This document shows, in pieces, positions 15,184 to 51,400 of a stretch of DNA of 53,294 nt (position 1 is the first letter of the stretch; every line of letters begins with the position of its first letter). Source of the DNA: an uncultured Eubacteriales bacterium (GTDB taxonomy: Bacteria; Bacillota; Clostridia; Peptostreptococcales; Anaerovoracaceae); contig CASDYG010000008.1 in assembly GCA_949285555.1 (NCBI GenBank), positions 1 through 53,294 of the forward strand, given 5' to 3'. The notes beneath the pieces are model-generated. The model did not search any database. It worked only from the letters and a program-made list of their open reading frames with translations, and was not told the DNA's origin. The position numbers and the translations under genes were made by a program.

Positions 15184-16611
15184 TTACTCATTCATCACCG
15201 ATATAATTTTATCTCTTGCTTCATTTATACTGTCCTCATCCTGGTCCATGATGTATCCAACTGCTCCTCCGGCTGAATATAGAGGTCTTGCATTTCCTTC
15301 ACCTGTAATATTTTGGTTTTCTATACTCCATGCACCCATGTTTATGAGCTGTCTAAAAGTGATTTCTTGCAGTTCCTTCGAAGTAAAGTTGGTGTCAATC
15401 TGATCCTTTAGCGAATTTACTATAGTAATAAACTTTGTAAGTATGGTTTTTTTGCTCGTTACTTTATCAAATATCGACTTGAACACCTTCTGCTGGTTGC
15501 TGTTTCTGTGCAAATCTCCTTCCTGATATGAATTACGCTCTCTGGCAAACATCAGAGCAATGTCACCATTCATATGATTCATACCCTTATGTATCACCCA
15601 TAGTCTGCCATCACCGTAGTAATCCCCTTCGTCCAGCTCTATATCGGAATCCACGTCTATACCGCCTATGGCATCTATCAGTTTTACAAACGTAGTGAAA
15701 TTGATTTTCACCGTATAATTTATGTCAATATCCAGCAAATCCTCTACTGCATAGGCCGATGCCTGCGCTCCATAAAGCCCTGCATGAGTAAGCTTGTCGA
15801 GTGCATCATCATGGTCTCTTAGATTTATTGCATAATCTCTCGGTATTGATGTTAAGAGAATTTTTTTCGTTTTAGGATTTATCGTAGCTATCATATTAAC
15901 ATCGGATCTGCCTTCTTTATCTATCGGTCCGTATGTGTCCATGCCGAGCAATAGCACATTGAAGGATTCTTTACCAATTTTGGCGGGCTTACTCCTTGCC
16001 CCTGACTTTACCTTAGCTGTAATGACGCCTATCTGTTTCATATCATCAAAAAAGGTATCCGAAATTTTGGCCATATACTCTTTTTCTTCACTGTTCAAGG
16101 CCACCATCTCAGCTTCCCCTGAAATTCCTAAAGTGCCTAAAGTTGGAATGTCATCTTCTTCATCACAGTCTAATCCTAAATTTTCTACAGCCTCAGTAAT
16201 TCCATCACGCTTATACTTAGGGCAATCTCCATTTATGTGGATCGTTCCTTCCTTTACATCCGCCAAGCTATCATGTTCATAGTCCGTTCTAGCGTAGATG
16301 TAGTAATCCATTGGAAGTCCCTCAGCTCCGCTAATTTCATCAAACAGATGCATTGCAAAACCCATATAGACCGTGCCTAATACAAATGTAGGAATCAGCA
16401 GAAGCGACAGAAACCACGCAATTACCTTTCGACTACGCTTTATATTTTTAAAATATAAAGGCGGAAATATGAATAGGCTTACGATTAAGCTTACACCTAT
16501 CGCAATTATCATTAGATGATTAGGCAATAGATGCAAGTAAAAGATTATTGCAAGAAAAGCAATCAGTGTTAAGCAATAAATTATCCCCCAAAGCTTACTT
16601 ATTACTCTCAT
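15184..16611 (-). CDS. LytR-CpsA-Psr (LCP) family protein
   Basis: A 475-residue membrane protein of the LCP family, enzymes that transfer phosphodiester-linked polymers (teichoic acids, capsule or similar glycans) to peptidoglycan. Three hydrophobic helices occupy about residues 7-28, 31-50 and 64-84; most LCP proteins have one. The extracytoplasmic LCP domain spans about 217-385, with FNVLLLGMD, GRSDVNM, IPRDY, ARERN and RNSNQQ motifs; the conserved Asp and Arg residues needed for pyrophosphate binding are present. A 130-residue linker precedes it. The ribosome binding site is weak (GAGGG). It follows asnS by 41 bp and has its own terminator. The polymer it attaches cannot be told from sequence. 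Confidence 0.9.
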   Translation of the reverse strand: MRVISKLWGIIYCLTLIAFLAIIFYLHLLPNHLMIIAIGVSLIVSLFIFPPLYFKNIKRSRKVIAWFLSLLLIPTFVLGTVYMGFAMHLFDEISGAEGLPMDYYIYARTDYEHDSLADVKEGTIHINGDCPKYKRDGITEAVENLGLDCDEEDDIPTLGTLGISGEAEMVALNSEEKEYMAKISDTFFDDMKQIGVITAKVKSGARSKPAKIGKESFNVLLLGMDTYGPIDKEGRSDVNMIATINPKTKKILLTSIPRDYAINLRDHDDALDKLTHAGLYGAQASAYAVEDLLDIDINYTVKINFTTFVKLIDAIGGIDVDSDIELDEGDYYGDGRLWVIHKGMNHMNGDIALMFARERNSYQEGDLHRNSNQQKVFKSIFDKVTSKKTILTKFITIVNSLKDQIDTNFTSKELQEITFRQLINMGAWSIENQNITGEGNARPLYSAGGAVGYIMDQDEDSINEARDKIISVMNE

Positions 16612-16652
16612 TTTACCCTCGATTTCTTAAAATGTTATTAGTTTTAATAGTT

Positions 16653-18041
16653 TTAAAATTCGGCGTTCCTTGGCGTTCTAGGGAACGGAATTACGTCTCT
16701 GATATTACTCATACCACTTAGGTACATGAGGATTCGCTCAAACCCCATTCCAAAGCCTGCATGCTTTACGCCACCGTATTTTCTAAGATCTAGATACCAC
16801 CACATTTCTTCCTCGCCAACTCCCATTTCCTTCATACGAGCTTGCAGTATATCCATTCTTTCTTCTCTCTGACTTCCTCCAACTATCTCTCCGACTCCAG
16901 GAACCAGCAGGTCGCAAGCTGCCACGGTCTTTCCGTCATCGTTCATCCTCATGTAGAAAGCTTTAATCTCCTTTGGATAGTCGGTAACAAATACTGGACC
17001 TTCAAATATTTTTTCAGTCAAATATCTCTCATGCTCCGTCTGAAGATCAACACCCCACTCTACTGGATATTCAAAATTATGTCCTGACTCTTTCAAGAGC
17101 TTAATAGCTTCGGTGTAAGTCACTCTCTTAAAATCAGATTTTGCCAGAGTGCTCATTCTCTCCAAAACTCCCTTTGCAATAAATGAATCGAAAAATTTCA
17201 TTTCTTCCTTGGCATTTTCCAGTACATAATTGATTATGTATTTTATGAGATCCTCTGCAAGCTTCATATTATCTTCTAAATCGGCAAAAGCTATCTCTGG
17301 CTCTATCATCCAAAATTCAGATGCATGTCTTGGTGTATTGGAGTTTTCGGCTCTAAATGTCGGCCCAAATGTATATACATTTTTAAAAGCCAGCGCAAAT
17401 ATTTCCGCCTCTAGTTGTCCACTTACCGTAAGGCCCGCTTGTTTACCAAAAAAGTCCCTCGAATAATCTATTGATTTATCACTTCCGGAAATTGCATCTA
17501 AATCTAATGTCGTAACCTGAAACAGTTCTCCTGCTCCTTCACAATCATTTGCGGTAATAATTGGTGTATGAGCATATACAAAGCCTCTCTCATTGAAAAA
17601 CTTATGTATGGCAAATGCTACTATTGAGCGTAGCCTGAAAACTGCCATGAAGGTATTACTTCTAGGTCTTAGGTGGGCAATTTCTCTCAAAAATTCTAAG
17701 GTGTGACGCTTTTTCTGAAGAGGATAGTCGCTATCTGAATCAGCCTCAAGACTAATCTTGTCCGCCTTAATTTCAAAAGGCTGTTTTGCCTCCGGTGTGA
17801 CTATCAAAGTTCCTTCTACTGTTATGGCACTTGAAATGGATATCTTGCTTATTTTAGCAAAATCCCCTAATTCCGATTCATATACTACCTGCACCGGAGC
17901 AAAGCAGGTCCCGTCATTGATAGACATAAAGCCAAACTTATTCGAACTTCTATTTCCCTTTACCCATCCTTCTATAGTTACCTTTTGTCCATCAAGCTCT
18001 TCATATTTTTTATGCAACTCTACAATATCTATAACAGCCAT
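16653..18041 (-). CDS. asnS: Asparaginyl-tRNA synthetase
   Basis: A 462-residue class II synthetase that charges tRNA-Asn. The N-terminal OB-fold anticodon-binding domain ([18 protein letters not shown]) is followed by the class II core with motif 2 ([25 protein letters not shown]) and motif 3 ([15 protein letters not shown]). Ends PRTPRNAEF, typical of AsnRS rather than AspRS. AGGAGA precedes the ATG. No T-box was seen upstream; the leader is short. Confidence 0.97.
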
Positions 18042-24459: not shown

Positions 24460-25977
24460 CTAGAGTGATGGTGCTTTCCCCATCTTACGTAATTCTTCTA
24501 GTGCAGTTACTGCCATTTTATGAGCTTCTTCCGGTGCTTCTGCTACTCTGCCTTTTTTTAATTTTCTCAGAATATTTGTATATGTACCATCTGCATAAAA
24601 TATATTCACTCCCATAGATGCAGTAATGATGGCATAGATTGGATTAATAATGTTCATAAAGCAGAACGGCAAATATGATAATGTTGAGACTCCTAGAATA
24701 CTAGAATGGTATGCACCACATGAAGACCATGGCACTAGAGGGGACCAAAGAGTACCGCCATCCTCTAAAGTTCTAGACAGCATGTTTCTAGATAGTCCTA
24801 ACTCATCATATTTTTCTTTATACATACTGCTCGGTATAATTAATCCTAAATATTGGTCACACATGGTGGTTATGCAAAAAAGACCAGTTATTATCGTAAC
24901 AACTACTAATTGGAAGGGAGTTTTTACCTTTTTTATCATATCTCCTAACAATGCTTCTACTGCACCTATTTTATGTAGTATACCTCCAAAAGCCACTGCC
25001 ACTATGACAAGGTTATTTGTCCAAAGCATGGCATCCATACCACCTCTATTCATAAGCTTATCTGCCAATTCATTACCAGTTTCAGCTTTGTACCCATAAT
25101 GTAACATAGAGATACAGTCAGCAAAGTCTGCACCCTGAAAAACAGCAGCAAAAAGGCAGCCTACGGATGCAATTAAAAGGACCGCAGGTATGGCTGGAAC
25201 TCTTAAAACAGCTACAACTACAATCAATATCATCGGCACTAATAAAATTGGACTCATATATTGATACTGATTTAAGATAGCATTCGAAAGCTCATTTGCC
25301 ACTGTTGGGTCATATCCTGTATTATGTTTTAACGACAAAAAAGTATATATTATTATAGCAATTATTAAACTTGGAAATGTAGTACTAATCATAGCTCTAA
25401 CATGATCAAATAGACCTGTTTGTGCCGCACCCGCTGCTAGATTTGTCGAATCTGATAGAGGACTAAATTTATCACCACAGCAGGCTCCAGAAAGAATCAT
25501 TCCTGCTACTAGCCCAGGATGAATCCCCATTGTAGCACCCATCGCCATAAATGCAATTCCTAATGTTGCTGTAACAGTCCAAGCGGAGCCTAGCGCTATG
25601 CCTACAATAGCACATAATATACATGCTAATGGCAAAAACATCGCAGGTGTAATAATCTTCAAACCATAGTACACAACTGCCGGAATAGTCCCTGCATATT
25701 CAAATGAGCCTATTAAACAGCCTACAAACAATATTATAATAATTGCTTCTAATGACATACTGACTGCATCTAGTGCTCCTGCCAGCAAATCCTTGTATGA
25801 CCAGCCACAAAGCTTTCCTACAATCATCGCTGCAGCACCTGCTATTACCACTGGTATGTGTGGATCCGCTCCGAATTCAAATATATAATTTGAAATCATC
25901 ATTACCAATAAAAGTACAATAGGAAAAAGCGCTAAAATCTTATTTGGCAACCTCGGCCTTTCAACTTTTAAATCCAT
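24460..25977 (-). CDS. nhaC: NhaC family Na+/H+ antiporter
   Basis: A 505-residue secondary transporter with about 11-12 hydrophobic segments. The family motif GACCGDKFSPLSDSTNLAA is clear and LAxA-type small-residue helices surround it. NhaC proteins exchange Na+ for H+, or in some cases an organic substrate such as malate/lactate or amino-acid pairs. The start is the ATG at 25977 next to AAAGGAGG; a frame beginning at TTG 25992 would overlap that site. Its position next to pucR and the NCS1-DUF917 gene suggests it may serve substrate uptake or the ionic side of that pathway, which is inference. Confidence 0.88.
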   Translation of the reverse strand: MDLKVERPRLPNKILALFPIVLLLVMMISNYIFEFGADPHIPVVIAGAAAMIVGKLCGWSYKDLLAGALDAVSMSLEAIIIILFVGCLIGSFEYAGTIPAVVYYGLKIITPAMFLPLACILCAIVGIALGSAWTVTATLGIAFMAMGATMGIHPGLVAGMILSGACCGDKFSPLSDSTNLAAGAAQTGLFDHVRAMISTTFPSLIIAIIIYTFLSLKHNTGYDPTVANELSNAILNQYQYMSPILLVPMILIVVVAVLRVPAIPAVLLIASVGCLFAAVFQGADFADCISMLHYGYKAETGNELADKLMNRGGMDAMLWTNNLVIVAVAFGGILHKIGAVEALLGDMIKKVKTPFQLVVVTIITGLFCITTMCDQYLGLIIPSSMYKEKYDELGLSRNMLSRTLEDGGTLWSPLVPWSSCGAYHSSILGVSTLSYLPFCFMNIINPIYAIITASMGVNIFYADGTYTNILRKLKKGRVAEAPEEAHKMAVTALEELRKMGKAPSL

Positions 25978-26106
25978 ATGCCTCCTTTTCAATCAAATTT
26001 ATTTTTTAAAGTTAGATACACTATACTTAAATTAAGTTTATTAATTTAATATGCTAAAATACTCACTTTACCAATATTACCATTTTTTAACACCTCTATC
26101 AACATC

Positions 26107-27000
26107 TTACTTATCGCTATTTTGAATTCTCCATAATATCATAACAAAATATAGGTTTGAAATTATAGGTAAGCAATCCAAACTACAATCTAAGACTTCT
26201 TCTATTTTCATCAGTCTGTAACGAATAGTATTACGATGTAAACGCATAATACCAGATGCTTTATAAGCCTGTGCATCTGCATCAATTAAATATATTGCTA
26301 AAGTATCACATAAATCATATTCTACTAGCCTATTAAGTATATTTTTCCACTCTTTTCTTGCAGAATTACTTTCTAAAACATTGGTAATCGCTTTAATATA
26401 ACTTCTATTCCAAATTCTCTTCTTATCATAAACACGTTCTAAAAGGTTATGAAACTTTAGAAACTCCTTATATTCATCATACAATGCATCTAAATCATTT
26501 ACCTGTTCACTACAAAAAATATTTATAGTCTCTTTTTCCTTACTATATGCTATACGCTCTATCCTGTATCCTATTTCCTTAATGATATTCGATTCTTTGC
26601 ACGCAATAAGAAAGACATAGTTACCATCTATCAAGGAACAATCATATCTAAGTTCATAGCTATCAAATAGTTCCTTTATCTTGTTTGCATTACTTTTTTT
26701 ATCTTTATAGTAATGTCCACTTATTACGATCATTTTTAGCTTATCATTTGTGTCTAGTTGCAAACACTTACCTATCTCGTAACCTATACCCTCTTTCAGC
26801 AAAAAATAGATTGCATTTATTCTATTTCTTATATATCTTCTGTTACCCCAAATATTTTCAAACTCTTCTAGTAATGTCTTTATTTGATTTGTTTGTTCAG
26901 TTAGTAAATTCCCCTTTTTAGAAATAACAATACAGTCACAGATTTCCCCACCAATATTTATCCCTTTTATGCTGAAAAGCTCTTCATCAATATCTAACAC
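26107..27000 (-). pseudogene. PucR-type regulator, C-terminal fragment (frameshifted)
   Basis: This frame (297 codons from a GTG at 27000) holds the C-terminal half of a PucR/CdaR-type transcription regulator. Residues about 207-290 carry the PucR C-terminal helix-turn-helix, with the hallmark ADAQAYKASGIMRLHRNTIRYRLMKIEE segment in which HRNTxRYRL is diagnostic. The open frame continues upstream without stop to the 41-bp duplication at 27155-27236, where it meets the N-terminal half in another frame. The GTG has no Shine-Dalgarno, so this fragment is probably not translated alone. Removing one duplication copy joins both halves into 513 codons, a normal PucR length. Confidence 0.88.
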
Positions 27001-27154
27001 TTTATAATCTGAGGGTACGTTGAAATTTAATTGCTTTATTCGGTTATATTCTTCTATACCAATTCCTCGATATAAATAATAATAACATCTGCTGCAAATC
27101 GATATTATAGGCTTAATAATTATGCTACATTTAAATGTGACAGCAATATTCTTA

Positions 27155-27236
27155 ATATAAGAATCAAAATTTCTATTCTCAATTAATATGTCTTTATATA
27201 AGAATCAAAATTTCTATTCTCAATTAATATGTCTTT
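27155..27236. repeat. Perfect 41-bp tandem duplication inside pucR
   Basis: 27155-27195 and 27196-27236 are identical 41-bp units (each beginning ATATAAGAATC and ending ATATGTCTTT). The bases flanking the pair differ, so the repeat is exactly two units. As 41 is not a multiple of three, it shifts the pucR frame and places a TAA at 27183-27185. Deleting one unit leaves 1542 bp from 27689 to 26107, exactly 514 codons with stop and no internal stop in the bridging part. Confidence 0.97.
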
Positions 27237-27689
27237 CAAGTTTGCTTTAGCAATGTTTACCAGGTTCAGCGAATCATCCTTGTGCTCATAAATCATACTT
27301 GTTACCTGCATAATTATATCGCTGTACTTTACCTTTCTATCTTTTTTATCATCTAAAACAATAAGAGGTAATCCTATAGTATTAGCTAAATCACAAACTT
27401 GAGGCGATATGCTGCCCATAATTTCTGTGCTATAAAAAATAATTAAGGCTATAGCACCAGTATCTTTCAAATATCTAATAGCTTCACATTGTTTATTCAC
27501 ATCTTTACTATAACTATAAAAGGCGGTAATTATAATTTCATTTGGAGTATAGTCATTAAACTCATCATTAGAAAAAAATTCCATAACTGAGACAGATCTA
27601 ACGATGCTTCCTAGACCTGTAAAACCAGCAATAACCTTACTATTTTTCAAACATGGCAACTTCAAACAGTCCCTAATTGTACATAACAT
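27183..27689 (-). pseudogene. PucR-type regulator, N-terminal fragment (frameshifted)
   Basis: This 168-codon frame encodes the PucR N-terminal ligand/purine-catabolism domain: MLCTIRDCLKLP, a GLGSIVRSVSVME segment and PNEIIITAFYSY, GAIALIIF and GLPLIVLD follow the family pattern. The ATG at 27689 is chosen because GAGGTGAT lies just upstream; an ATG-less extension to 27758 lacks a site. Translation ends after ENRNFDSYIKTY because the 41-bp duplication shifts the frame, so the helix-turn-helix is lost. It is divergent from the NCS1-DUF917 gene, its likely target. A truncated product could exist but should not bind DNA. Confidence 0.88.
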
Positions 27690-27718
27690 AACATCACCTC
27701 TAACATTATTATATATTA

Positions 27719-27757
27719 TTTGTTCATGTGCACAAAGTATATTTGTTGCATTGTACA
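27719..27757. promoter_or_regulatory. Possible regulator-binding direct repeats between pucR and permease gene
   Basis: Two 16-nt segments starting TTTGTT at 27719 and 27742 match at 11 of 16 positions and are 23 bp apart, about two helical turns. The first also forms an imperfect inverted repeat (TTGTTC...GCACAA). They lie in the divergent control region, so they may be PucR operators. Weak evidence. Confidence 0.3.
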
Positions 27758-27785
27758 CATTGATAAAAACAAATTATCGCAAAGA

Positions 27786-27794
27786 TGTTATAAT
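27786..27794 (+). promoter_or_regulatory. Extended -10 promoter of permease-DUF917 gene
   Basis: TGTTATAAT, an extended -10 with a perfect TATAAT at 27789-27794, 29 bp upstream of the ATG. A TTGATA sits 23 bp upstream, too far for a normal -35, which may mean an activator is needed. Confidence 0.5.
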
Positions 27795-27823
27795 TCCAGT
27801 AAAATCATCTAAAGGAGGTACTT

Positions 27824-30202
27824 ATGGGCAAAGAAAAGAATTACTGTATTGAAGAAACAGCTTTATCACCTATTCCTCAAAGTCAAAGAATGAGTTGGCT
27901 ATCATTGGCTTTTGTACAAGCAGGAATTTGTGTATGTGTACCCGCCTTTTTGTTAGGTGCTCTGCTTGCAGAGGGAATGCCTATTATTCCAGCTATCATT
28001 TCTGGTTCTTTGGGCTATTTATTAGTGGTTATAGGCATGATAATAATAGGATTCATGGGTACTGATCTTGGCATAGCTTCATGTACCGCATGTGAAGCAG
28101 GGTTTGGAAAACGTGGAGCACGAATCATTGTAAGCACAATCTTTGCTATCAATATGATTGGATGGTTTGGAATCAATAATCAGGTATGCGGAGAAGCTTT
28201 TAGCAACGCTATTAAAGACATGACAGGATTTTATATTCCTGTTACAGCATCAAGCATCATTTGGGGAATTATCATGCTGCTTACTGCTATTTATGGTGTG
28301 TCTGCATTGGAGAAGCTGGATAAAATCTCCATACCGCTACTAATGGTTATTATGGTAGTTGGTACTTATTTAGCTTTTAAAATTTATGGAGTTTCAGGAT
28401 TAGATAAAGATTCTAATTATACTATGAGTTTTTTCTCTGGTGTTGCATTATCTTTTAATTTCACCGCTGTCGGAACTATAACAGCAGCAGACTATACGCG
28501 TTTTCAAAAAAGTCGTATTGATACTGTAAAATCCACCTTTTACGGAGTATTTCCGATGGGTGTTATTACTTTGGTACTTGGAATACTACTGACAAAGATA
28601 TCAGCAGAATATGATATAGGCATGGTGTTAATAAAGGTTGGTATGCCTTTACTCGGAGTGATAGCTTTAGTAATTTCCACATGGACTACTAATTCAAGCA
28701 ATGCTTACAGCGCAGGACTTAACCTAGTAATGGCTTTCAATATTAAAGATACTAAAAGAAGAGAGGCAACACTAATATCGGGAATCATAGGCATCATACT
28801 CTGTGCTCTTGGCATATTAGATGAAATTGAAAATGTACTAAGTTGGCTTTCATATGCTGTTTGCCCTATAGGCGGCATACTTCTTGCCGATTATTGGATA
28901 GTCGGCCGTGGAAAACCAGAAAACTTTAAACCTATAGAAGGTTTTAATTGGGCGGGTATACTAACATGGGCTGCTTCAATACCCCTAGCAGTATTGACCA
29001 AAATTGAATTCTTAGGAATCTTCATTGCCCTTATCATATACCTAGTCATCGAGAAATTTATTCCATCAAGTTCTAGACCACTAAACAATAAAAAGGAGGC
29101 TTTGAATGAAAAAATATTTAAAGAAGACATAATAAGAATCTTAATAGGATGCTCCTTACTGGGTACGGGGGGTGGTGGTTCTCTAGAAGAGGGAATTACT
29201 ATGATTAATCAATATTTTGAAGAGGATGATTATATAGAACTAATCCAACTTTCTGAAATACCTGACGACAAATATATCGCTACACCTTATAGCTGTGGTG
29301 CTCCAGATGCTAAAAGTGACCCTCAATTTAAAAATCTCAAAAAAGTAACATCAATACCATCTATACTGGCTTTAAAAGCTATAGAAAAATATATAGATGA
29401 AAAAGTTTTTGCAGTTACCACTACTGAACTTGGAGGGTCAAATTCTGCAGAAGCTTTTTGTGCAGCCAAAGCTATGGGAATTCCTTTAGTAGACGCAGAT
29501 CCCGCTGGACGTTCTGTTCCAGAATTACAACACTCAACCTATTTCTTAAATAATGTATCAATAGCTCCTCTAAGTGTTGCTACAACATTTGGAGATACAA
29601 TTGTTATTGAGAATGTAGTCAATGACTATCGAGCGGAAGATATCGTTAGAGCAATTGCCGTTGCCAGTGATAACATGGTAGGAGTTTGCGACCACGTTCA
29701 TAAGGCAAAGAAACTTAAAAATGCACTTATCCCACAAATGATTACCTACGCTGACACAATAGGTAGTATAATTACTCAAGCCCTGAATATAGAAAAAAAA
29801 CCGTGCGACTATATTATCAATCAATTAACAAATAAGCTAAAAGGTAAAAAATTATTTGAAGGCATTATAAATGATTTTTCTTGTGAAACAAGAGAAGGAT
29901 TTAACTTCGGAGAAATACTTTTACAAGGTCTTCATGAAAATCAAGATGACTATTTTAAAATTAACTTTAAAAATGAAAATATTATTGCCTATCACAATGA
30001 CAAGGTAGTTGCTATGGTTCCTGATTTAATTTGTATGCTAGGTGATAATGGCTATCCTATAACTACTCCTAATTTTAAAAAAGGAGATACAATTAACATT
30101 GTAGCTTTACCAGCACCAAAAGAGTGGCTAACAAAAGAAGGTTTAGAGTGTTTAGGTCCATCGCACTTCAATCTAAATGTTGACTATAAACCATTTAGTT
30201 GA
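27824..30202 (+). CDS. NCS1/CodB-like permease joined in frame to a DUF917 domain protein
   Basis: A 792-codon frame. Residues 1 to about 415 are a 12-helix NCS1 (cytosine/nucleobase, CodB-like) permease with MSWLSLAFVQAG, ADYTRF and TNSSNAYSAGLNL segments. Residues about 430-792 are a DUF917 (PF06032) domain with LLGTGGGGSLEEG, YSCGAPDAKS and DADPAGRSVPELQHS; Pfam links this family to S-methyl-thiohydantoin desulfurase activity, as I recall. These are normally separate neighbouring genes. At the junction an AAGGAGG (29095-29101) and an ATG (29106) lie one base out of frame before an A6 run; one more A would end the permease and start a DUF917 protein MKKIFKEDI. So the fusion may be a recent indel, a sequencing error, or a slippage site. 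The strong AGGAGG precedes the ATG at 27824. Confidence 0.85.
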   Translation: MGKEKNYCIEETALSPIPQSQRMSWLSLAFVQAGICVCVPAFLLGALLAEGMPIIPAIISGSLGYLLVVIGMIIIGFMGTDLGIASCTACEAGFGKRGARIIVSTIFAINMIGWFGINNQVCGEAFSNAIKDMTGFYIPVTASSIIWGIIMLLTAIYGVSALEKLDKISIPLLMVIMVVGTYLAFKIYGVSGLDKDSNYTMSFFSGVALSFNFTAVGTITAADYTRFQKSRIDTVKSTFYGVFPMGVITLVLGILLTKISAEYDIGMVLIKVGMPLLGVIALVISTWTTNSSNAYSAGLNLVMAFNIKDTKRREATLISGIIGIILCALGILDEIENVLSWLSYAVCPIGGILLADYWIVGRGKPENFKPIEGFNWAGILTWAASIPLAVLTKIEFLGIFIALIIYLVIEKFIPSSSRPLNNKKEALNEKIFKEDIIRILIGCSLLGTGGGGSLEEGITMINQYFEEDDYIELIQLSEIPDDKYIATPYSCGAPDAKSDPQFKNLKKVTSIPSILALKAIEKYIDEKVFAVTTTELGGSNSAEAFCAAKAMGIPLVDADPAGRSVPELQHSTYFLNNVSIAPLSVATTFGDTIVIENVVNDYRAEDIVRAIAVASDNMVGVCDHVHKAKKLKNALIPQMITYADTIGSIITQALNIEKKPCDYIINQLTNKLKGKKLFEGIINDFSCETREGFNFGEILLQGLHENQDDYFKINFKNENIIAYHNDKVVAMVPDLICMLGDNGYPITTPNFKKGDTINIVALPAPKEWLTKEGLECLGPSHFNLNVDYKPFS

Positions 30203-48454: not shown

Positions 48455-51400
48455 TTATTTTTCAAATCTTCTTTTTCCAAGAGCTGCTACAGCACCTGCA
48501 AGTAATACTGTATATAACATTATATTTTCAGCATCGCCTGTCTTTGGCGCCTTATTTCCTGCTTTACCATTTCCTCTGGATACAGGTGTTGAAGGTGTCA
48601 CTGGTGTTGTGCTTGCTGGAGTCTGCGGCTTAATATTTTCCGGCTCTCCAGGTGTAACAGGTTGCTCTGGTGCTGGTGGTGTCTCAGGATCTGGTTCTGG
48701 ATCAGTCTGAGTTCCGTTATCAGTTACCTCTGGTTTTTCTGGTACTGGCGGTGTCTCAGGATCCGGTTCTGGATCAGTCTGAGTTCCGTTATCGGTCACT
48801 TCTGGTTTTTCTGGCGCTGGTGGGCATGGCTCACACTCCTTTTCCTTACTGAAGAAGTATACTAAATTGTTTTCTCCCTCATTTATTATAATAGACTCAT
48901 CACCATAAACCTTCTTGTATTTTTCCTTATCAGCTACATCATCTCCTAACTGTTGATCCTTTTCACTAACTGTATACTTATCTCCCGCTTTCAGACCAGT
49001 AATCACTTTATCTGCCTGAAGCTTATTGCCTTCATTGTCAATATATACAATAGTCAGGTTACCCTTCTTTGGATCTACTGGTGGCTTAGGTTCTTCCTTT
49101 ACTACCTTCTTGTAAAGAACAATCACCTTATTGTTGCCACCCTTTACAGTTATTTCACCATTTCCATACTTGTATTCGTAGTCATTGCCATCTTTAGTGA
49201 TCTTGTTATCTACGTTTACAGTATAGCTGTCACCATCTGTAAATTCTCCAGGAACATTTTTCTCCTTTATCTTATTGCCTTCATCATCAACATAGATAAT
49301 GGTAATAGTTCCCTTTTCTTTTTCTGCTGGAGGCACTGGCTCTGGAGTTCTTGCATAATAGTAAACAACTGTAGTTTCACCTTCAGTTACCTTACCAGTC
49401 TTCTCACCAAGAGTAATCTTTCCAGCTTCGTATCCAGCCTTAGGCTTCTCATTAGCATCATAAGGAGTGTCAAGTGCCTGATCCTGCAAGATATATTCAG
49501 ACTCAGTTTCGCCTCCTTCATATACATGAACCACCTTTACAGAACCTGTCTTAGGTGCTTCAGGCTCTTCTCCAGGCTCGGCAGGAGTCTTAGCATAATA
49601 GTAAATTACAGTAGTTTCACCTTCCTTCACTACTCCGTCCTTGTCTCCTACGGCAACAACACCCTTCTCAAAGCCTTCCTTATCCTTAGCCTCAGATGTA
49701 TATGGTGTATCTACATCAACATTTTGCACCGCATATTCTGTAACTGTCTGTCCACCTTCATAAATATGCACAACCTTTACAGAGCCCTTCTTAGCTTCAG
49801 GTGCTGGAGTGGTTACCTTCTCTTTGTATAAAAGTATAACCTTATTTTCACCTTCTTTAACAGTTATTTCACCGTTTCCATACTTGTATTCGTATGTCTT
49901 GCTGCCATCGTCGCTAGTAATAGTGTCATCACCTTTGACAACATACTTATCGCCTACATTCTTTTCTTCCTCTACAGGTACTTCCTTGATGACATTGCCA
50001 TCTCCATCCATGTATACAAGAACCACTGTACCCTTTGCTGGCGCTGGAGGTACTTCAGTCTTCTTTTCTGCATACAATACCACTACAGTATTTTCGCCTT
50101 CTTTAACAGTTATTTCACCGTTTCCATACCTGTATTCATAAGTCTTATCTTCAACATTTATTTCAGGATCAACATTTACCTGATATTTTTCATTTACATT
50201 GTGTTCTGTCTTGTCTCGATCAGTTTTAATAATCTGACCTTTATCATCAATATAAACTATTGTTACTGTACCCTTCTTTGCCACTGGTTCCTCTGGAGTT
50301 TCAGGTGTCTTAGCATAATAGTAAACAATTGTCGTTTCACCCTCTGTAACCTTACCTGTAGCAGTACCTGTGGTTACAACACCTGCTTCGTAGCCCTCCT
50401 TTGGTTCCTGAGATGTGGTGTATTCAGTGTCTACATCTACATTTTCATGGATATATTTTACAACTGTTTCTCCACCCTCATAGACGTGGACAACCTTTAC
50501 AGAGCCTTTCTTTGCAACAACAGGTGGTTCTTCATTTTTCTTATATACATATACAATAGTTCTATTTAGTCTATCCTTGGAGATTTTACCTTCTTCTGGA
50601 TCAGAAGATGTCTCTATCCTCTTGTATGTATATCCTTCGATCTGCTTATTGGCACCTCTCTTATCAGCATCCACGCTGTATGCAGTGTCTTCTTTTGCAT
50701 CGGTTACTATCTTCTCCTCAGCAGCAATAGGTGTACCGTCCTGATCTACATACTTAACTGTTACATTACCAGTAACCTTTTTGTACACATAAACGATAAC
50801 CTGTGTTTCTTCCTTTATTTCTCCCTTTTCAGGGTCAGATGCTACCTCAACGCGTACAAATTCATAGCCTTGATCTGTTAAGTCAGAAGGATTTTTCTCA
50901 TCATTTCTAACGATTTCATATCCTTCTCCCACATTACCATTAGCCACCTCTTTGTCGGCTTTGATAGTGTTTCCTTCCTGGTCAACATACTTAAGAATTA
51001 CATTTCCAGTCTTTTCGGCTGGTTCTTCTGGTTCGGCTGTCTTACGATATACGTAAACTACAGTCTTTGTTCCTTCTGTAACCTTTCCATTCTTTTCTGC
51101 TGATCCATATCCCATATAAGCGAATTCATAGCCATTGAAGGTCTTCTCCTCTGTAGTATATGCTGTATCTACCTTCTTATCTTTAGCCTCTCCGCTATCC
51201 GTATTGGCATAAGCTTCTATGGCATTTGGATCTGGCTGTCCTTCTACTTCTATAGGCTGTCCAGTTGCTTCATCTATGTAAACAACCTTAACGCTACCTA
51301 CTATTTTTTTATAATAGAGGAAAACTCTTTTGATACCTTCTTCTACCGTACCCATCATTGGCTCAGAATCAAATCCAAGGCCTTCTAGGCGATATCCGTC

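Follow-up and report, generated by a model that had tools for sequence, protein, structure and literature searches.

In the window (the whole stretch of 53,294 nucleotides that was analysed), an exact tandem duplication of 41 bp divides the PucR-type regulator gene that lies divergently to permease-DUF917, and judging from the sequence we consider it likely, with a probability of about 0.8, that this is a recent loss-of-function allele born by slippage. The inactivation of the regulator, as predicted from the reading frames, is well supported. The exact duplication, the break of the frame, the one-frame orthologs, a spacing of the halves that agrees with a single unit and the contig overlaps of 99 bp are direct observations; slippage, recency, loss of function and the regulatory direction are the parts of the explanation that we infer. 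The features of the locus are collected in Table 1.

Table 1. Position of the 41-bp duplication, its flanks and the surrounding genes in the window.
Feature	Position	Strand	Remarks
41-bp unit, left copy on the + strand, second read by the ribosome	27155..27195		exact identity with 27196-27236
41-bp unit, right copy on the + strand, first read by the ribosome	27196..27236		exact identity with 27155-27195
Left flank, proposed slippage annealing site (inferred)	27145..27154	+	resembles the last 11 unit bases (27185-27195); the alignment has one gap, one mismatch
Inverted repeat, perfect 7 bp, 3-base loop	27148..27164		left edge of the duplication falls where stem and loop meet
N half of the regulator, PucR domain, 168 aa, stop inside the duplication	27183..27689	-	PF07905, E=4.4e-23
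C half of the regulator, 365-codon frame, PucR-type helix-turn-helix	26107..27204	-	HTH_30 (PF13556), E=3.4e-10
Divergent intergenic region, 134 bp, presumed promoter/operator	27690..27823		between the N-half and permease starts; function inferred
Permease (Transp_cyt_pur) fused to S-Me-THD/DUF917, presumed target	27824..30202	+	Pfam; gene order kept in relatives
Na+/H+ antiporter family (nhaC-type) gene, downstream of the regulator	24460..25992	-	PF03553, E=7.4e-58

Structure of the Duplication and of the Divided Regulator

Direct comparison limits the exact period-41 run to 27155..27236, which is 82 bp and no longer, and Tandem Repeats Finder reports a matching array with two copies of 41 bp. 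The first-pass annotation had described two identical and adjacent units with a length that is not divisible by three. This is correct, as 27155-27195 equals 27196-27236 and 41 mod 3 is 2, and the exact duplication thereby shifts the frame of the regulator. The N half begins with an ATG at 27689, with AGAGGTG upstream, and ends at the TAA 27185-27183, which occupies bases 11-13 of the second-read unit. Translations and Pfam agree here with the earlier statement that the PucR domain ends at a stop within the duplication and that the helix-turn-helix follows in another frame. Both domains typical for PucR-type regulators are present, PF07905 in the N half and PF13556 in the C half, but in the window they do not occur in one polypeptide, since they lie in different frames. 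A second PucR-type gene of the same genome (G000), located on contig C5, contains both domains in one frame. Besides the TAA in the duplication no further stop appears in the frame translations of the N or C half, and the peptide encoded by the unit is identical in the two frames. The length of the regulator with one unit had been calculated as 1542 bp or 514 codons, which is right when counted inclusively (1583-41) and with the stop codon included. The first ATG, GTG, or TTG codon of the C half is the GTG at 27000, and no Shine-Dalgarno-like stretch can be seen by eye before it.

Two further observations concern the window itself. The permease and DUF917 (S-Me-THD) parts at 27824-30202 form a single open frame of 792 aa; the 18 inspected relative loci that clearly show both genes have a separate frame for each. 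Furthermore, a 72-bp repeat with 2.1 copies and 92% matches is located at 48666-48814 in an ORF of 1493 aa.

The Regulator Locus in Related Genomes

The divergent arrangement of PucR-type regulator, permease and DUF917 gene recurs in the family, and a PucR-domain match is present in 178 of 296 genomes drawn from it. In G001, which belongs to the same genus, the order is a gene of the Na+/H+ antiporter family, a PucR-type gene (535 aa), a permease gene and an S-Me-THD/DUF917 gene, whereby the Na_H_antiporter neighbor of the regulator is 47% identical to the nhaC-type gene of the window. In alignments with the G001 regulator, the N half covers residues 16-147 at 47% identity, and the C half covers residues 390-535 at 32% identity. 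The spacing between the two aligned parts, obtained by arithmetic on the alignments, amounts to 242 residues when one unit is counted, compared to 243 in G001. Another strain or a close species was not found; N-half matches outside G000 were at most 47% identical among the matches listed.

We inspected 22 relative loci, namely L062, L063, and 20 stretches that were chosen as strong matches together with every match with an open frame of <400 codons among the matches listed. At 19 of these loci the regulator lies in one frame, three run off a contig end and none is split, whereby three of the 22 (L194, L195, L196) have no permease in the stretch and not all are therefore orthologs of this locus. 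Separate genes for the two halves, which had been named beforehand as part of the counter-evidence, were not encountered at any of the inspected loci, three of which are cut by contig ends. Relatives with frames of <400 codons were also considered as cases of a broken regulator (G291, G253, G297, G178, and G081, among the matches listed). No breakage was found in them, as two are short one-frame variants and three run off contig ends. When the query was begun upstream of the ATG, a stop fell inside seven of 46 matches; in the three of these that were checked (L006, L011, L018) it stands just before the start and is followed by an open frame of 529-536 codons. As a separate observation, the permease of the same locus lies in two frames in L209 (2076-3385, G217) and L202 (1319-2676, G064).

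Together with halves that are otherwise open and a frame offset that equals the duplication, the one-frame state in relatives supports the earlier description of a clean and recent inactivation. The case cautions against annotating the two halves as two genes.

Origin of the Duplication

Immediately left of the array stand ten bases, AATATTCTTA, that are similar to the last eleven of the unit, AATATGTCTTT. Their alignment score of 6 is reached at 96 of 20000 random window sites and at 70 of 17804 nearby sites. The similarity of the flank and the adjacent hairpin fit a replication slippage with imperfect annealing, in which the nascent strand, ending in AATATGTCTTT, would have slipped back by 41 bases and paired with the similar AATATTCTTA. 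Re-annealing beside the small hairpin, followed by a second copying of the stretch, would then lead to an exact 41-bp duplication in place. As the exact run comprises just 82 bp, the junction has no perfect microhomology and the proposed slippage site is imperfect, which weakens the slippage reading. The event is presumably recent, because the units are identical and neither half contains another stop.

Assembly Evidence

The first-pass annotation had also considered an assembly duplicate, in which case the DNA would carry one unit and the second would be spurious. The genome is indeed a draft of 1,445,866 bases in 16 contigs, and the lack of exact microhomology at the junction is what a mechanical concatenation would give. 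However, among the 32 contig termini 10 pairs have an exact overlap or an identical terminus. The shared length is exactly 99 bp in nine pairs and 95 bp in the tenth, and 99 bp is the signature of a de Bruijn assembler run at k=99. In such an assembly a duplication caused by node overlap would have the length of the overlap, which is 99 here; the duplicate measures 41 bp and matches neither 99 nor 95 bp. Moreover, the 82-bp array plus 17 bases fits into one 99-mer, so that the two-unit form should be among the read k-mers and should exist in the assembly graph as a path that the assembler kept.

A census of adjacent, exactly matching duplications (periods from 15 to 600), covering 40 stretches of G000 (804,247 of 1,445,866 bases, 55.6%), points in the same direction. 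It yielded five duplications in all, among which the 41 bp of the window is the longest unit and the only intragenic case with a period that is not a multiple of three; the other four are one of 25 bp between genes on contig C1 and three of 18, 30, and 33 bp, periods that are divisible by three. Neither N bases nor a second 41-bp duplication occurred in these 55.6% of the genome. As controls, 144,337 bases of G002 (4,685 masked) and 153,700 bases of G003 (1,660 masked) gave one 15-bp duplication and one 4-bp microsatellite. The similarity of the flank to the end of the unit fits a biological cause as well. The contig overlaps and the census thus argue against an assembly duplicate; an artifact is unlikely and a real allele is favored.

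Further repeats and disrupted genes of G000 were noted on their own account. An exact 25-bp tandem duplication at 19871-19920 of L072 (contig C1) lies between genes, just upstream of a small, cysteine-containing ORF of 47 aa, near ORFs that by appearance resemble a radical-SAM maturase and an ABC transporter. A crude split-gene scan gave near-full matches with relatives' frames for 74 query segments; the pairs in L072, L076, and L091 appear to be neighboring genes. At 7239-8293 of L099 (contig C2) a RhuM-family gene, labeled by PF13310 in the two pieces searched, is disrupted into three frames and is one frame in G001. In L102 (contig C3), three short segments at 16138-17013 match consecutive portions of one frame of 867 codons in G036, which resembles gene decay; the two pieces searched against Pfam gave no match.

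Less Probable Readings: Reversible Switching or Separate Genes

If the 41-bp unit were gained and lost at high frequency, the regulator would be phase-variable, and cells with the regulator on and off would be maintained side by side. An exact direct repeat of 41 bp is expected to be unstable, and the locus carries an exact frame-shifting duplication, as would a locus that is phase-variable by sequence duplication. Spontaneous reversible sequence duplications are known from pneumococcal capsule genes (Waite 2001, 2003; as cited in excerpts of PMC4022640 and PMC4243769). Against this stand the presence of two copies only, in one allele of one genome, the lack of a split regulator at all 22 inspected relative loci, and the case of lrp in Xenorhabdus, an instance of a regulator gene that can bear tandem duplications without switching: the excerpted text of PMC6786866 gives no genetic reversion among the eight isolates tested, whichever of the lrp mutations these carried. 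The array also differs from the many-copy arrays of short units that define simple-sequence contingency loci, as it has two copies of 41 bp, and the longest homopolymer within 27140-27240 is 4. A scan of viral_contigs for the exact pattern of the left junction gave no match. Phase variation is therefore quite improbable here. It is very doubtful, too, that the 41-bp segment, owing to its hairpin and imperfect flank repeats, duplicates readily and so lets the bacterium switch a regulator of nutrient uptake reversibly off and on.

That the halves are a stable arrangement, either as separate proteins or as a whole regulator made by shifting ribosomes, is highly improbable: both halves are open without internal stops and each unit has an AAATTTT heptamer, but the C half offers no ATG, GTG, or TTG before the poorly equipped GTG described above, the first heptamer is in phase and the -1 frame from it reaches a TGA at once, the second lies beyond the N-half stop, no AAATTTT is present in the frame overlap between 27204 and 27183 as a programmed -1 frameshift would need, and none of the 22 relative loci, three of them cut by contig ends, has two genes.

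Predicted Consequence for the Regulator and Its Presumed Target

For the loss-of-function allele that we favor, the frame shift would end translation in the unit read second and leave a 168-aa fragment without the DNA-binding domain, while the helix-turn-helix half would have no good start of its own. The divergent permease-DUF917 gene would then lose its induction. The first-pass annotation had expected the controlled genes (permease-DUF917, perhaps nhaC) to be deregulated, which is probably the wrong word: according to excerpts of PMC7652997, characterized PucR-type regulators are mostly activators, with PucR of Bacillus subtilis acting both as activator and as repressor. A loss of induction of permease-DUF917 is therefore, by analogy, likelier than deregulation. 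The same excerpts describe GabR of Corynebacterium glutamicum as a PucR-type regulator that is likewise divergent to a gene set containing a permease, whereas here the domains lie in different frames and the neighbor is permease-DUF917. Among the literature matches listed for PucR with tandem duplication, pseudogene, or phase variation, none names PucR.

The pneumococcal capsule genes, as far as the excerpts describe them, share with the present case a duplication in place within an open reading frame that inactivates the gene; they differ in being capsule genes with reported phase variation, whereas here a metabolic regulator is affected in one genome. In lrp of Xenorhabdus three of 25 mutations were tandem duplications of 26-116 bp (PMC6786866, excerpts), thus of similar size and also in a transcription regulator, but the 25 mutations arose in culture and here a single allele is at hand. 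As far as these sources are excerpted, the two cases show both fates of such lesions.

As mutations go, the duplication described here is ordinary, and the locus it affects is a metabolic one. It provides a clear example of how a short tandem duplication inactivates a gene, in which the usual state of the locus can be read from the relatives. If the allele is reversible, duplication-based switching would extend to a regulator of uptake and catabolism, and the locus would then be a metabolic rather than a surface phase-variable locus.
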